From Candidatus Moranbacteria bacterium CG_4_9_14_3_um_filter_42_9 (GTDB lineage: Bacteria > Patescibacteriota > Minisyncoccia > Moranbacterales > UBA2206), in assembly GCA_002790635.1 (NCBI GenBank), contig PFVN01000085.1, forward strand, positions 8,713-19,285: 10,573 bases of DNA, given 5' to 3'. The position numbers were made by a program, and so were the translations under genes. A model generated the notes under the pieces. It was not told where the DNA came from. It was given only the letters and a program-made list of their open reading frames with translations, and did no database searches. Of the stretch, positions 1,918 through 8,755 are shown one piece after another. The first letter of the stretch is position 1; every line of letters begins with the position of its first letter.

Positions 1918-2967
1918 TCAGATTAATTTAGACTGATTATCATATTTTATTCCCAGATGTGCGTAAGCCGTTTCGGTTATTACCCGGCCGCGGGTAGTCC
2001 GCGCTAAAAAACCGATTTGCAAAAGATACGGCTCATATACCTCCTCGACAGTTTTTACTTCTTCAGAGATAGCAGCCGCAATAGTGGTAAGCCCCACTGG
2101 GCCGCCTCCAAACTTTTCTATGATAGTCCTCAGGAAATGACGATCAGACGGTTCCAGTCCCAGTGGATCAACATCAATCATTTCCAAAGCAGCGCTCGCC
2201 ACAACACTGTCAATCGCCTTATGATTCTTAATTTGGGAAAAATCCCGGACACGCTTGAGCAAGCGATTGGCGACCCGCGGTGTGTGGCGTGAGCAGGCCG
2301 CAATCTTTTCCAATCCGGTCTCGTCAATTTCCACGCCCAAAATTTTGGCCGAGCGCTTCAATATTTTTTTGATTTCTTCTTTTGAATAAAACTCCAGTCG
2401 ATGTGTGGCGCCGAAGCGGTTGCGCAAAGGATTGGAAAGCGCGCCTAATTTGGTAGTGGCTCCGATGAGCGTGAATTTTGGCAAATCCAGTTGCAAAGTT
2501 CGGGCAGAAGGGCCCTTGCCGATGATAATATCCAGTTTATAGTCCTCCATGGCCGGATAAAGAACCTCCTCAATTATTTTATTCAGTCGATGGATCTCGT
2601 CGATGAAAAGGACGTCACCGTCCTGGAGATTGGTGAGAATTGACCCGAAATCCCCGACCCGTTCGATGGCCGGTCCGGAAGTCGTTCGGATATTCACGCC
2701 CATTTCTTTGGCAATGATGTTGGCGAGTGTTGTTTTTCCGAGGCCCGCCGGACCATACAATAAGATATGTTCGATCGGTTCCTGTCTTTTTTTGGCGGCG
2801 CGGATAAGAATATCTAAATTCTTCTTGATTTTATCCTGGCCGATATACTCGTCAAAACTTTGAGGACGAAGCGTGTTGTCTAAATTGCCGTCCTCTTTTC
2901 CATTTAGGCGGCTCCGGACTACAGATTCGTCCGTTTCTTCTATTTCAGGTGAGGCAATGATAACCAT
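1918..2967 (-). CDS. ruvB: Holliday junction branch migration ATPase RuvB
   Basis: RuvB is the AAA+ motor that, with RuvA, drives branch migration of Holliday junctions in recombination and fork repair in the cytoplasm. With the ATG at 2967 the protein is 349 residues, normal for the family. Visible marks: [12 protein letters not shown] (about 33-44), Walker [10 protein letters not shown] (72-80), Walker B LFIDEIHR (120-127), sensor 1 IGATTK (168-173), and NPLRNRFG (179-186) with the conserved arginines. The C-terminal winged helix contains [35 protein letters not shown]. The frame can be extended six codons to a TTG at 2985, but ATG and family length favour 2967. ruvA and ruvC are not in the window. 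It leads the unit that continues with the two membrane proteins. Confidence 0.97.
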
Positions 2968-2975
2968 ATAAATTA

Positions 2976-3066
2976 TAAATCTCAATATCCAAAAAAATCC
3001 CAGATGCCTAATTATTATCCAAAACTTAAAATTTTATTTGACATTGGGATTTGGTTTTGGAATTTC
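2976..3066. repeat. Degenerate CCAAAT-rich inverted repeat in the ruvB leader
   Basis: The left part (2977-3002) reads as alternating AAATCTCAATATCC and AAAAAAATCCCA words. The right part (3044-3065) is its imperfect reverse complement, TTGGGATTTGGTTTTGGAATT. The two could pair across about 40 AT-rich bases. The same word family (AAATCCCAATTTCC) recurs inside tsaE and downstream of tsaE. If the ruvB promoter at 3074-3102 is used, this hairpin makes up nearly all of the roughly 100-base ruvB 5' leader. Confidence 0.5.
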
Positions 3067-3073
3067 TAAACAC

Positions 3074-3102
3074 ATAATACCACTTATTGACAAAAAATGA
3101 AA
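3074..3102 (-). promoter_or_regulatory. Candidate ruvB promoter (extended -10)
   Basis: On the minus strand, TGGTATTAT (3082-3074) is an extended -10 element. A weak -35 (TTTCAT, 3102-3097) lies 17 bases upstream. The start would be near 3067, giving ruvB a leader of about 100 nt. It overlaps the opposing plus-strand promoter at 3087-3115, so the two should compete for polymerase. Confidence 0.45.
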
Positions 3103-3115
3103 GTTATGCTACCAT
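3087..3115 (+). promoter_or_regulatory. Candidate promoter of an unassigned plus-strand transcript
   Basis: A consensus -35 TTGACA (3087-3092), a 17-base spacer and -10 TACCAT (3110-3115) preceded by TG at 3107-3108 (extended -10). The predicted start, near 3121-3123, coincides with the first bases of the long stem starting at 3120. No convincing protein-coding frame follows on this strand, so the promoter points to an RNA. Confidence 0.55.
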
Positions 3116-3119
3116 ACCC

Positions 3120-3424
3120 AGTCATCTTGAAAATTTTACCCTCGCACCAATTTTTCGTTGATTTTAAGGCATAAAAAAGAAGGACAAAAAAACTACAAGG
3201 CGAAATTGGTGCGGGGGCAAGGATGACTAGCAGTAAACTGTAGGCAATTTGGGGGCTTCTATCTTTTGTCCTCAAAACCGGAAACTTTTTTGTCCAGATA
3301 TGGGTAATTTGGTTTCGGCTAGATTATGCCTCGACATTGTTTCTTCCTCAAAGCCCTAGGTTTTGAGACTTGCCTGCAGATTATTGATTGAAAAAAACGT
3401 CCCGCTTAGGCGGGACGTTTTTTA
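3120..3424 (+). ncRNA. Candidate structured non-coding RNA of about 300 nt
   Basis: No credible gene occupies 2968-3433. The segment after the plus-strand promoter is rich in self-complementarity. A long stem pairs 3120-3129 and 3139-3153 with 3203-3217 and 3218-3228: 25 bp in all, with one G·T pair, a 9-base bulge on the left side and a single-base bulge on the right. Its core is CCCTCGCACCAATTT with AAATTGGTGCGGGGG. A second hairpin is 3347-3367 (CTCAAAGCC, loop CTA, GGTTTTGAG). The unit ends in the strong hairpin at 3392-3423 followed by U-rich sequence. I find none of the signatures of tmRNA, RNase P RNA or SRP RNA. It could instead be a mobile palindrome or the remnant of one, or a minus-strand RNA. 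The strand choice rests on the promoter. Confidence 0.45.
3392..3423. terminator. Strong bidirectional intrinsic terminator
   Basis: AAAAAACGTCCCGC, loop TTAG, GCGGGACGTTTTTT: 14-bp arms with an 8-bp GC-rich core, and a T-run on either strand. On the minus strand it lies 10 bases after the stop codon of the tandem ATPase gene and is its terminator. On the plus strand it would end the proposed non-coding RNA. Confidence 0.9.
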
Positions 3425-3433
3425 TGGCAAAAT

Positions 3434-6400
3434 TTAAATGTCCGTCACTCTTTCAATTTCTTCTAGCGTTGTCTCTCCTTCTAAAATTTTCAAAACCCCA
3501 TCTTGTTCCATGGTAATCATTCCATTTTCTACTGCCTTGTCATGAAGTTCTGAAGTCATAGCGGCGCGGCTGATCATCTCCTGAATAGAGCGATCAATGA
3601 CAAACACTTCGCTAATAGTCGTTCGGCCCCTGTAGCCGATATGGTTGCATTTTTCACAGCCCTGAGCCTTATAGATAATGGATTCTTTTGGAATAACTAC
3701 ACCGGCATTGGGAGAAATGGTTTTCAAGATAGTATCGATTTTTGTTTTTTCTTCCGGAGTCGGACTGATTTTTGTCTTGCAGTCGCAAAGCTTTCTGACC
3801 AGCCGTTGGGCCAAAAAGGCATTTACGGCGGAAGCGATATCGGAAGGCGACACGCCCATATTCATCAGTCTTTGTACTGAACCAGCCGCGTTATTGGTGT
3901 GGATGGTAGAAAGGACCAGGTGACCGGTGAGAGCGGCTTGCACGGCAATCTGCGCCGTTTCGTCGTCTCTGATTTCGCCGATCATCAGAATGTCCGGATT
4001 TTGACGAAGAAGTGAACGGAGTGCCGAGGCAAAAGTATAGCCTTCTTTTTCATTAACCGGAGTTTGCAAAATTCCTTCTATTTGATATTCGATCGGGTCT
4101 TCTACTGTAATAACTTTGACTTCCGGTTTGTTGAGAATATTGATAATGCTGTAGAGAGTAGTAGTTTTTCCCGACCCAGTCGGCCCGGTGGTCAGAATAA
4201 CGCCATTCGGTTTTGAGATCTCTTTATAAATTTTTTCCAGATTTTGTTTTCTGATACCTAGTTTTTCCAAGACCAGTTCTTGGGAGGCCTTACTCAAAAG
4301 GCGCAGAACGGCCGTTTCTCCATAGCCGCCCAAAATTATTGAAACGCGAACATCCACCGAGCTTTCCTTAACATTCTTAATTTCCGGGTCAAATTTAATG
4401 GAAAAGCGGCTGTCAACCACGCCCTCCCGGACTTCGGTTTTGACGCCACTTAAAAGCTTGATTTCTCCTAACAAATTCGGGTATTCATTTAAGGGATAAT
4501 TGGCCACCGTTTGCAGAATCCCATCGATGCGGAAACGCACCTTGACATCCTTGGCTCCCGGTTCCAGGTGGATGTCGCCTACTCCCAAAATGGCGGCTGC
4601 GGCAAAAATTATCTTGTTAATGTCATCAGTTTTGGAAACAGACAATATTTTCTGAAAAGTTTTGAAGTCAGCTGTCCCTTCGGTGGCTTTTTTAAAATGT
4701 TCCGGACTGATCAGAATTCCAAAGCCCAATGTTTGGGACATCAGTTTTTCATAGATGCTTTCCAGAAAATCCCCTTCACCGGTAACCCGCTTAACTTCAT
4801 CTACGGAGGTGATACCCTCGACCGCTTTCAAAAGACCGTCTTGGAGCAAGGTGACCATACCGGCCTCCAGCGCGGCGAAAGTCAGTTCTGATTCGCCGGC
4901 CAGGGCAAGCACCAGTTTTTCAATCTCTTCGTTAATAGTGAAAACTTCAAATATTCCGACGCGTCCTTTATATCCAAGGTTGTTGCATTTTAGGCAACCC
5001 TTCGGGCGAAAAAGTTTATTTATTTCCTTGGGAATCTCCAGCTTGGCCTTGGGTGAAATAATGGAAAGGATCTTCTTGATGGATTCAACCGCTTCAACGG
5101 CGGGCACATATTCTTCTTTGCATTCACACAATTTTCTGACCAATCTTTGTCCGATCAGAGCGTTGATTGAAGGCGTAATCAAGGAAGGCTTAACACCCAT
5201 TTCCAAAAGCCGCGGAATGGTAGCGACTGCGCTATTGGTGTGGATGGTCGAAAGAACCAAATGTCCGGTGAGAGCAGAATTAACCGCGATATCGGCAGTT
5301 TCTTCATCTCTGATTTCACCGACCAAAATGATATCCGGATCTTGGCGAACAATGGAGCGCAGTCCGGTGGCGAATGTATAGCCACGCGAGGGCTCCACTT
5401 GCGTTTGTGTCAGGCCCTTGATTTCATATTCAATTGGATCTTCAATGGTGATTATCTTGGTTTCCGGATCGTTTAATTTATTGACGATCGCGTAAAGTGT
5501 AGTCGTTTTACCTGATCCGGTCGGTCCGGTTGTCAGAAGCATTCCGTTCGGAGCGGAAATCAGTTTCTGCACTTTTTCATATGCCAGCCCGCGTAATCCC
5601 AGACTCTCAACACTCACCTGGGTCAGTGACGCATCCAGCAGACGCATAACAATGCTTTCCCCATAATTTTCCGGAATGATGGAAACCCGCACAGAAATTC
5701 TCTTGGCATCAATATTGATTTCAAACGCACCATCCTGAGCGATGTCGCGCAGATTCAATTTCATACCCGCCATCATTTTTATCCGGGAAACAATATTTTT
5801 ATAGACAGATAACGGCAAAAGAACGACATCGTGCAAAACTCCGTCAATACGATAACGGACTCGGATATCATTTTTTTGCGGTTCAATATGCACGTCGCTG
5901 GCGCCCATCTTGTAGGCTCCGCCCATAACCACGCTCAACACCTGGGTAATAGGGAGCTCTATAATTCTTTCCCTAAGCGTTATCAAGTCTTTTAGATATT
6001 CGTCAAACTTCTGTAAATCTTCTCCGGTTAAATTGACGCTCATCTGGGACAAAATATCAACAAAAACAGCTTTTTTGTATTTCTCCCAAACCCTGTTTAG
6101 GTTATAATGGGAAACCACAAAAAGAGTTATTTCCCAGTCGTTTTCTTTCTGTAATTTTTCCACAAAATCTTTAGTTTTCTGGGCGCTGGGATCGGTGGAA
6201 ACAATAGTAACTTTTTTTTCTGCTTTTTGGATCAGCGCCACGTTAAATTTTCGGGCATCTTCTTCCGGGATAAGATTCACCACTTCATCGCCAATCGGAA
6301 TCAGGTTGGTGTCAATATAGGAAAAGTTTAATTCAGCCGCCAAGGCGGAGGCCTGTTCTTCTTCTGATTTGTGGCGCAGAAAAGAAAGGGCTTTTTCAGC

Positions 6401-6466
6401 TTCTTTCTCTTTTTGCGCCGCGACTTTTTTGCCGACAAGCGAACGTTTGTGTAATATTTTTATCAT
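3434..6466 (-). CDS. Tandem GspE/PilB-type secretion ATPase: two motor modules in one chain
   Basis: GspE/PilB ATPases are cytoplasmic hexamers that power type IV pilus extension or type II secretion. A usual member has about 560 residues; this has 1010 and holds two. Module 1: an N1 (MshEN-like) domain at about 25-130, then SDVHIEP (190-196), Walker A GPTGSGKTT (314-322), the Asp-box region ITIEDPIEYE (339-348), Walker B with GEIRDEE (383-389), His box GHLVLSTIHT (401-410), and a zinc-type cysteine set C447, C449, C491, C494. It ends with the usual family C-terminus, QDGLLKAVEGITSVDEVKRVT. Module 2 has no N1 domain and repeats everything else: GDIHLEP (630-636), Walker A 761-769, GEIRDDE (830-836), GHLVLSTIHT (848-857), C894, C896, C937, C940, and a matching tail. 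Both sites look intact, so both may hydrolyse ATP. No pilC, pilT or pilin gene is nearby. It is transcribed alone from a candidate promoter at 6494-6522. Confidence 0.95.
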   Translation of the reverse strand: MIKILHKRSLVGKKVAAQKEKEAEKALSFLRHKSEEEQASALAAELNFSYIDTNLIPIGDEVVNLIPEEDARKFNVALIQKAEKKVTIVSTDPSAQKTKDFVEKLQKENDWEITLFVVSHYNLNRVWEKYKKAVFVDILSQMSVNLTGEDLQKFDEYLKDLITLRERIIELPITQVLSVVMGGAYKMGASDVHIEPQKNDIRVRYRIDGVLHDVVLLPLSVYKNIVSRIKMMAGMKLNLRDIAQDGAFEINIDAKRISVRVSIIPENYGESIVMRLLDASLTQVSVESLGLRGLAYEKVQKLISAPNGMLLTTGPTGSGKTTTLYAIVNKLNDPETKIITIEDPIEYEIKGLTQTQVEPSRGYTFATGLRSIVRQDPDIILVGEIRDEETADIAVNSALTGHLVLSTIHTNSAVATIPRLLEMGVKPSLITPSINALIGQRLVRKLCECKEEYVPAVEAVESIKKILSIISPKAKLEIPKEINKLFRPKGCLKCNNLGYKGRVGIFEVFTINEEIEKLVLALAGESELTFAALEAGMVTLLQDGLLKAVEGITSVDEVKRVTGEGDFLESIYEKLMSQTLGFGILISPEHFKKATEGTADFKTFQKILSVSKTDDINKIIFAAAAILGVGDIHLEPGAKDVKVRFRIDGILQTVANYPLNEYPNLLGEIKLLSGVKTEVREGVVDSRFSIKFDPEIKNVKESSVDVRVSIILGGYGETAVLRLLSKASQELVLEKLGIRKQNLEKIYKEISKPNGVILTTGPTGSGKTTTLYSIINILNKPEVKVITVEDPIEYQIEGILQTPVNEKEGYTFASALRSLLRQNPDILMIGEIRDDETAQIAVQAALTGHLVLSTIHTNNAAGSVQRLMNMGVSPSDIASAVNAFLAQRLVRKLCDCKTKISPTPEEKTKIDTILKTISPNAGVVIPKESIIYKAQGCEKCNHIGYRGRTTISEVFVIDRSIQEMISRAAMTSELHDKAVENGMITMEQDGVLKILEGETTLEEIERVTDI

Positions 6467-7803: not shown

Positions 7804-7831
7804 TTGACCTGTTCGCGGCATATGGTATAAT
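7804..7831 (+). promoter_or_regulatory. Strong promoter giving a probably leaderless mRNA
   Basis: -35 TTGACC (7804-7809), a 16-base spacer ending in TGG, and a perfect -10 TATAAT (7826-7831). The TG at 7823-7824 makes an extended -10. Only six bases separate the -10 from the ATG at 7838, so transcription should start at or within a base or so of the start codon. Confidence 0.8.
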
Positions 7832-7837
7832 TTAAAA

Positions 7838-8131
7838 ATGGAAAACAAGCAAAAAATTCTGAAAATTGTTCAGGATAGCCAACTCTCTCCTGATGACCAA
7901 AAAGAGTGGGAAGCGCTGGCCGAATCCGCGCCTACGGAATTTCTTGAATCAGCCGTTGTTATTCTGGAAAGTTTTCCGGAAGAAATTCAATGGTTTACGG
8001 ACGCTTATAAGAAGAAAAAAGCAGCCTTTGTCATTCTGAAAGAAGACAAGGCCAAAGGAGAAAAGCTATTGCAAGAAATTTTTCAAGAAGAAAAGGAAAA
8101 ATTGCAAGAGCTAGCCAATAAACAAGCCTAA
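7838..8131 (+). CDS. Small charged helical protein, function unknown
   Basis: I do not recognise the family. It is a 97-aa soluble protein, rich in Glu and Lys, predicted almost wholly helical. Residues 1-60 alternate acidic and hydrophobic positions (ESAVVILESFPEEIQWFTDAY). Residues 58-97 form a highly charged helix with coiled-coil character (KKKKAAFVILKEDKAKGEKL and onward). There is no signal peptide, membrane segment or cysteine. The gene directly follows a strong extended -10 promoter, with the ATG at or next to the predicted transcription start. It is followed after 9 bases by the 204-aa gene, so the two form an operon ended by the hairpin at 8773-8797. Strong expression plus small size would suit a structural or adaptor role; that is inference. 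Confidence 0.75.
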   Translation: MENKQKILKIVQDSQLSPDDQKEWEALAESAPTEFLESAVVILESFPEEIQWFTDAYKKKKAAFVILKEDKAKGEKLLQEIFQEEKEKLQELANKQA

Positions 8132-8140
8132 GCTAAAAAT

Positions 8141-8755
8141 ATGAATTTCAGAGAACAGCCAAAAGCACCTATAAAAGAAATCGAAGTGGAATCGGATGAG
8201 GAGATTCAGAAACGAATGCGACAGGAAGCCGAGCCAATAAGAAAAATCGAATTGGATCAAGAGATGGAAGCAGTAACGGAGCAGGTGAGAGTGGAAAATG
8301 AAACTATCGGAGAGGGCGTATTTTCCAAGTTGCCGGAAAATCTAAAAAAATATGCGAAAATTTTGATATTAGGCGGAACCCTTCTTTCCGGTTTAGGAAC
8401 AAGTAATGCCGAAGCCGGAGATAAATCTTTTTTCCAAAAAATGATGAAAGAAGTTGAATTTGGAGTGCTGCAGGGAGTAGGCGGAGATTTTGACAGAGAG
8501 CAACAGCGCAAAAATGCGGAAATGTGGCAAAGGCAACAATTAGAAAGTCAGGCGAACCAAATGGCGCTAAACAATGCTTGGGCGCGAGAGCAAAGGCAGG
8601 AGCAAATGAGCGATCAGAGAATCGAGGAGAGGGCCAGAGCTATCCGAGATGAAGGCAGAAGATTCGCGCAAGCGATCGCGCAGAAAGGAGCAGATCTTGA
8701 TCATGAAGAAAAGATTCATAATAGAATACTGGATGATATCAAAAAAAATTACTAA
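8141..8755 (+). CDS. Unknown protein with an internal signal-like helix and a Gln/Arg-rich helical tail
   Basis: No family is recognised. It is a 204-aa protein in three parts. Residues 1-65 are hydrophilic and strongly charged (KEIEVESDEEIQKRMRQEAE). Residues about 68-92 look like a signal peptide or membrane anchor placed inside the protein: LKKYAKILILGGTLLSGLG, then SNAEA before GDK, an AxA-type cleavage site. Residues about 95-204 are a long charged helix rich in Gln, Arg and Glu, with few hydrophobics and coiled-coil potential. No start codon later in the frame gives a normal short signal peptide, since the next Met residues either lie far upstream of the helix or beyond it. It is the second gene of the unit that starts at 7838. 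It may be a membrane-anchored protein with a cytoplasmic N-tail. Confidence 0.7.
   Translation: MNFREQPKAPIKEIEVESDEEIQKRMRQEAEPIRKIELDQEMEAVTEQVRVENETIGEGVFSKLPENLKKYAKILILGGTLLSGLGTSNAEAGDKSFFQKMMKEVEFGVLQGVGGDFDREQQRKNAEMWQRQQLESQANQMALNNAWAREQRQEQMSDQRIEERARAIRDEGRRFAQAIAQKGADLDHEEKIHNRILDDIKKNY

Follow-up and report, generated by a model that had tools for sequence, protein, structure and literature searches.

A conserved structured RNA beside ruvB in Patescibacteria, very probably a free-standing gene of a class without an Rfam 15 match

The Patescibacteria (CPR) make up a large share of bacterial diversity and have tiny genomes. The described RNAs with which the RNA of the present work is best compared are 6S RNA (RF00013), Ms1 of the Actinobacteria and the orphan structured RNA classes known from comparative genomics. 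With 6S RNA it shares the single copy and housekeeping type, the paired ends, an own promoter and a wide occurrence within its group, but it does not match the 6S model, a junction with the hairpins P2, P3 and P4 replaces the open bubble in the class studied here, and the core is mostly shorter. Ms1 is likewise lineage-wide, belongs to a group in which 6S was not found, carries extra short hairpins and came to be recognised partly through its gene order; however, it is about 300 nt long and its binding to RNA polymerase has been demonstrated, whereas for the new RNA such binding is a proposal (for Ms1, PMC9130861). The orphan classes resemble the new RNA in being defined by covariation and conserved loops, and what sets the new RNA apart from them is its fixed place between ruvB and pilB, its presence in about three quarters of the sampled genomes of the class and the lack of a match in Rfam 15.

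The window, by which we mean the whole stretch of DNA analysed, comprises 10,573 nucleotides of a Candidatus Moranbacteria contig. For the gap between ruvB and a tandem ATPase gene the initial annotation had suggested an unrecognised structured RNA, and this suggestion is borne out by the missing Rfam match, conservation, covariation, an own promoter and terminator and a fixed position. We are confident that window positions 3087-3424 are a free-standing gene that encodes a structured non-coding RNA and is made up of a promoter, a folded core and a terminator. With equal confidence we see in it the local member of an RNA class of the Patescibacteria which is old, inherited vertically, normally present in single copy and without an Rfam 15 match. 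The sequence shows the promoter, the closing helix with P2, P3 and P4, conserved loops, the terminator and the fixed place; the gene is presumably transcribed and its RNA would act in trans. The features of the locus are as follows.

1918-2985, minus strand: ruvB, the divergent neighbour (Pfam RuvB_N, AAA_lid_4 and RuvB_C).
3087-3115, plus strand: promoter with the -35 element TTGACA (3087-3092), a 17-nt spacer and an extended -10 element TACCAT (3110-3115) with TG before it (10 of 12 in the promoter scan; conservation).
3120-3228, plus strand: 5' hairpin of the RNA, of which the outer 9 bp (3120-3128/3220-3228) are common to relatives (folding).
3139-3217, no strand assigned: 79-bp palindromic insertion within the 5' hairpin loop, with the inverted repeats CCCTCGCACCAATTT.../...AAATTGGTGCGGGGG, absent there in close relatives.
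3226-3387, plus strand: conserved RNA core (covariance models R1 and R2).
3230-3387, plus strand: P1, the closing helix, 3231-3236/3381-3386 and 3238-3246/3371-3379 (96.8% of cells paired; two-sided changes in 16 of 16 pairs).
3249-3275, plus strand: hairpin P2, its loop with CUAUCUUUU (96.5% of lettered cells paired; reduced or absent in some members of the class).
3280-3347, plus strand: P3, a long imperfect arm whose internal loop is conserved and whose tip is a UNCG tetraloop (3314-3317); the weakest helix lies at its base.
3348-3366, plus strand: hairpin P4 (91.2% of cells paired; two-sided changes in 7 of 7 pairs).
About 3393-3424, plus strand: intrinsic terminator AAAAAACGTCCCGCTTAGGCGGGACGTTTTTT, a hairpin with a T-run (sequence and fold), also a terminator on the minus strand.
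3434-6466, minus strand: tandem PilB-type ATPase of 1010 aa with two T2SSE stretches (Pfam), the convergent neighbour.

The promoter described initially, with its -35 element, 17-base spacer and extended -10 element, is present. On its own the site at 3087 would be unremarkable, as the promoter scan found 27 promoter-like sites in the whole window where 20.3 were expected; it exceeds chance because it is conserved in relatives. Within the order, the best promoter-like site ahead of the core has an exact TTGACA, a 17-nt spacer and TAnnnT in all 94 loci (69 distinct sequences), TG stands ahead of the -10 element in 93 of them, and TGCTA at this point is common to 65 of the 69 distinct sequences. 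Across the class, 43 of 47 loci reach a promoter score of 10-12 of 12, compared with 2 of 47 shuffled ones, while among nine matches from outside the class a best score of at least 10 was seen once, which equals the shuffles. The RNA probably starts near 3120-3123. The terminator at the other end is equally as first described, since a hairpin with a T-run at 3393-3424 is plain in the sequence and in the fold. It is absent from the list of the consensus scan that gave the promoter, probably because the T-run pairs with an A-run and was counted as stem. A T-run lies within 26 nt of P1 in 28 of 47 class loci, in 13 of 69 order loci and in three of the nine matches outside the class, and it may be that P1, being long and having a T-run behind it in many members of the class, doubles as a terminator.

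The region 3118-3430 folds at -119.6 kcal/mol (z = -8.45), and not one of 100 shuffles was equally stable; for the stem 3118-3230 alone z was -5.63, with none of 200 shuffles as stable. A 25-bp imperfect stem had been noted here, followed by more hairpins. Its pairs and its bulge are as described, but the stem is composite: nine outer pairs (3120-3128/3220-3228) are the RNA's own, whereas the 16 inner pairs (3139-3154/3202-3217), which lie beyond a one-sided 10-nt bulge, belong to the insertion. Conservation of the stem, which had been named for a covariation test, is divided in the same way. The outer part is conserved and, as judged by eye, an exchange of C-G for A-U keeps the pairing (AGUCAUC/GAUGAUU in L007 and L010 versus AGUCAUA/UAUGGCU in L008 and L013), but the inner part is not conserved. 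The further hairpins also exist; what had been missed is that the best conserved part of the gene, 3226-3387, lies downstream of the stem. The minimum-energy fold of the window's own 3226-3387 is close to the consensus fold.

Evidence for this consensus comes from alignments at two depths. In the order, RNAalifold on a MAFFT alignment (A1, 44 sequences) predicted 51 pairs, 31 of which changed on both sides in some sequence. An HMM alignment of 68 distinct order rows, which was not fitted to the model, was tested against two tree-aware nulls: five of 50 structure pairs reached E<0.05, while outside the structure no pair did. Of 11,476 column pairs in the order, the top 15 by covariation were all within the structure, as were 22 of the top 50. 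The class alignment A2 was fitted to the covariance model and its figures lean towards the structure, a bias from which the order alignments (HMM and MAFFT) are free. In A2, 93.9% of cells are paired, compared with 72.6% after shuffling and 40-48% after sliding, and two-sided changes occur in 48 of 51 pairs. Under the two tree-aware nulls 19 of the 51 pairs had E<0.05 and again none lay outside the structure, with the top 30 covarying pairs, and 35 of the top 60, falling within it. The null test is our own re-implementation and is distinct from R-scape. L135 has a second match, on the opposite strand (E 6.6e-5), which is included in the paired-cell figures of A2 but was removed for covariation. 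Within P3, pairing in A2 rises from 83.8% of cells at the base to 89.7% in the middle and 94.5% at the tip, which is closed by a UNCG tetraloop or sometimes by others such as GCAA; the loop of P4 is variable. Two additional pairings were considered. One between GGACAAAAAAA, in the big loop of the insertion (3181-3195), and UUUUUUGUCC (3286-3295) was dropped because that loop belongs to the insertion. The other, noticed by eye between UAUCUU in the P2 loop and AAGAUA in P3, is not claimed, there being no significant column pair outside the structure.

The feature is conserved in relatives. In a BLAST search of 91 genomes, the window's own included, about 3222-3385 and, separately, the promoter matched at roughly 70-87% identity. 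The best match had E<=1e-6 in 60 of the 91 genomes (a count from the table), while the 90 of 91 with a match at E<=1 include noise. The 60 loci chosen for their BLAST matches (L003-L062) all fit the profile of the core. A pattern scan of named genomes gave 34 records; the title is Moranbacteria or Moraniibacteriota in 18, and in the others Parcubacteria, Patescibacteria, Paceibacterota or unnamed bacteria. Two covariance models, whose E-values are rough, were used for wider searches. R1 was built from 44 of the 69 distinct order sequences (sequences with long insertions, near duplicates and a partial row were excluded) and found the RNA in 158 of 383 sampled genomes of the class, which we take to be Paceibacteria. 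R2, built from 57 diverse loci with L171 left out, found it in 283 of the 383, in 249 of the 337 genomes of good quality and in 228 of 294 genera; in the order, by listing, it was found in 34 of 37 sampled genomes. The 100 class genomes without an R2 match may reflect strict filters as well as real absence, and the same holds for the small number of genomes with a match outside the class. Copy number is nearly constant, with one R2 match in 277 of the 283 genomes and two in six. The latter are G086, G209, G300, G372, G403 and G428, and in G086 the two matches are adjacent. In a sample of 379 genomes from the phylum, 24 had matches, 15 of them within the class and nine outside it. The 47 class loci used for comparison were chosen from the listed matches for family spread and not at random, 40 through R1 and then seven through the phylum sample. 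A low-similarity search of a plasmid collection gave no match, and viral contigs gave none to a three-part pattern of the core.

The position of the gene is fixed. Divergent ruvB lies beside it in all 69 distinct order loci and in 43 of the 47 class loci, and downstream there is a convergent gene for a PilB-type ATPase, in 47 of the 69 order loci and in 45 of the 47 class loci; in the other 22 order loci the stretch of sequence ends or contains no pilB match. At least one of the two genes stands beside the RNA in 46 of the 47 class loci. Even weak matches within the class are supported by this, because the model is blind to neighbouring genes and yet the position is fixed. In eight loci of the order (L005, L015, L022, L029, L047, L048, L070 and L086) we noticed by eye an ATG behind a ribosome-binding-like stretch, just downstream of the RNA and in the same direction, and a gene between the RNA and pilB is possible there. 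Is the RNA also found beyond the class? For the nine matches outside it, ruvB is divergent in five (within about 160 nt in four and about 1.1 kb off in one) and absent in three, the remaining match having only 213 nt of sequence, in which ruvB could not be judged; pilB is beside none of the nine. Some of these matches may be false, because ruvB is missing in three of the eight that could be judged, pilB is missing in all, and shuffled sequences reach promoter scores as high as theirs. Perhaps the RNA is nevertheless older than the class, the main argument for this being the four cases with adjacent ruvB.

The inner part of the 5' stem has a history of its own. In close relatives the 5' hairpin has a short loop, of the type AGTCATC...GATGACT, in place of the 79-bp palindrome at 3139-3217. 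A screen of the core in the 69 order sequences (the 5' part was read by eye) revealed insertions of 46-126 nt with inverted repeats in eight other loci, situated in the internal loop of P3 in L020, L055, L056 and L060 and in the P3 tetraloop in L023, L032, L037 and L045. All eight lie at positions which are unpaired in the consensus, and several insertions share repeats similar to CCCCGCACTAACTTTGCA. By eye, L052 seems to carry another palindrome in its 5' part. At least nine of the 69 distinct order loci, that of the window included, thus have palindromic elements in loops of the RNA. L020 and L032 belong to one genus, and their elements share 81% identity over 122 nt although they sit in different loops, which we read from these sequences as movement of the element. 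With their inverted repeats placed in RNA loops, 3139-3217 and the related insertions recall MITE-like elements and the palindromic intervening sequences of rRNA. Terminal inverted repeats and related copies at different sites, both traits of MITE-like elements, are found here, but the several copies per genome are not: in the window's genome there is no second copy at E<=0.001, only a short arm-like match (G000:C104) at E 0.1. The palindromic elements may be cut out of the RNA or simply tolerated, and for the insertion in the window the relatives suggest that it is tolerated.

Could the whole feature then be a mobile palindrome or its remnant, which the initial annotation had named as the main alternative? 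For 3139-3217 itself this alternative holds, considering its absence from the loop in close relatives and the eight further inverted-repeat insertions in other species. As an account of the gene it fails and is very improbable, since the core, the promoter and the place are kept throughout the class without the palindrome, normally in one copy per genome, and dispersed copies of the element were not found in the window's genome at the threshold given above. A leader, riboswitch or attenuator that acts in cis on a plus-strand gene downstream would find some encouragement in those order loci where, by eye, an in-line ATG follows a purine-rich, ribosome-binding-like stretch (for example L005, L015, L022 and L070). 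In the window, however, there is nothing between the RNA and the convergent ATPase gene, and the stop of the ATPase gene lies within 60 nt of P1, or overlaps it, in 31 of the 47 class loci and in 10 of the 69 order loci, with a T-run close to P1 in the numbers of loci given above. The RNA is not a leader of either neighbour, because both lie on the opposite strand and the space behind it is mostly too short for a gene in the class loci examined; we regard a leader as highly unlikely.

Known RNAs fare no better as an explanation. No Rfam 15 family passed its threshold anywhere in the window. At E<=10 there were 21 matches in the gap, all below their cut-offs, and the best (E 0.0096) was to the Mycoplasma sRNA MCS4 (RF02713), at 3304-3425 with 31.8 bits against a cut-off of 56. 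This match covers half of P3, P4 and the terminator, hence it does not correspond to the RNA as a unit, and we take it as chance. Rfam searches of the RNA in 26 distant loci (22 from the class and four from outside it) gave nothing convincing and no 6S match; the single overlap, sR4 at the start of the RNA in L206 with E 1.5, is at chance level. The signatures of SRP RNA, tmRNA and RNase P RNA had been looked for by eye without success, and none of the three models matches at the locus. SRP RNA was at first entertained since neither of two Rfam models found it in 25 order genomes (RF00169 in none at E<=0.001, RF01854 in none over the cut-off), and its task might seem vacant. It was ruled out by the Ffh M domain (PF02978), which is missing from all 25 genomes whereas all 14 controls were positive; loss of SRP in Parcubacteria is already described (PMC4508563). 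tmRNA and RNase P RNA were ruled out by the presence of such genes elsewhere in the genomes. tmRNA (RF00023) is over its cut-off in 24 of the 25 order genomes, that of the window included, with only a weak piece in G003, and RNase P RNA (RF00010) is matched at E<=0.001 in 24, over the cut-off in 17, the exception being the window's genome, which is 81% complete. That the feature is a diverged form of one of these three RNAs is scarcely credible, and we continue with the reading that it is a free-standing RNA gene of an unlisted class.

What could such an RNA do in the cell? It is most likely important, because it has been kept in 283 of 383 class genomes, normally in one copy and in one place. 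We suggest, as the most likely way of working, that it would be the scaffold of a housekeeping ribonucleoprotein, in which proteins would bind at the conserved internal loop of P3 and at the junction, and P2 and the UNCG-capped tip of P3 would be structural. The partner might be RNA polymerase, as it is for 6S and Ms1. Being a functional analogue of 6S/Ms1 which tunes transcription through such binding is a possible role by analogy, if on the unlikely side. We favour it because it is the sole widespread bacterial RNA task not accounted for here, and because the compact forms L195 and L197 from outside the class fold as a closing stem, a small central loop and an apical arm. No 6S was over the cut-off in the 25 order genomes (best E 6), compared with 24 for tmRNA and 24 with a match for RNase P RNA, although the 6S search has limited sensitivity, as it was over the cut-off in just four of 14 control genomes. 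A single copy as a rule, a strong promoter and paired ends point in the same direction, and Ms1 sets a precedent, having been spotted via synteny in Actinobacteria, where no 6S had been found, and with extra hairpins of its own (PMC9130861). Several properties argue against this role: the 6S model (RF00013) has no match at the locus, the centre of the class form is a compact multi-helix junction with no open unpaired bubble, two other compact forms from outside the class, L201 and L203, fold with side hairpins, and most cores fall short of the 180-200 nt that PMC9130861 gives for 6S. Some other protein-bound role is conceivable but rather unlikely. We are doubtful about a trans-acting antisense sRNA that would pair with messages via exposed loops, for instance CUAUCUUUU in the loop of P2. 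This loop is conserved within the order, but some members of the class have a reduced P2 or none, the loop of P4 varies and the tip of P3 is a UNCG tetraloop, with others such as GCAA in its place at times. Antisense sRNAs, moreover, usually need less extensive covarying folds than the one found here.

We put forward, tentatively and as a little short of an even chance, that this is an unlisted class of housekeeping RNA which predates the split of the Patescibacteria classes, has been kept beside ruvB and has a core task in the control of transcription or translation in bacteria without SRP or a recognised 6S RNA. We hold this reading lower because, of the eight matches outside the class that could be judged, three have no ruvB, and because promoter scores there do not exceed those of shuffles. 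A search of the open-access literature, with subscription papers and preprints outside its scope, gave no paper on such an RNA among the matches listed. The novelty is at the level of the RNA class; if binding to RNA polymerase were proven, the RNA would belong to the 6S kind. Annotation based on Rfam would miss it, and what is gained is a marker locus, a covariance model with which genomes can be annotated and a candidate for whatever, if anything, replaces 6S RNA.

Two other observations concern the neighbourhood within the window. Two open frames on the plus strand, 7838-8131 and 8141-8755, neither with a Pfam match, lie downstream of a promoter-like site at 7804-7831 which scores 11 of 12. 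The ATPase gene at 3434-6466 on the minus strand joins two PilB-type units (T2SSE) in one protein of 1010 aa.
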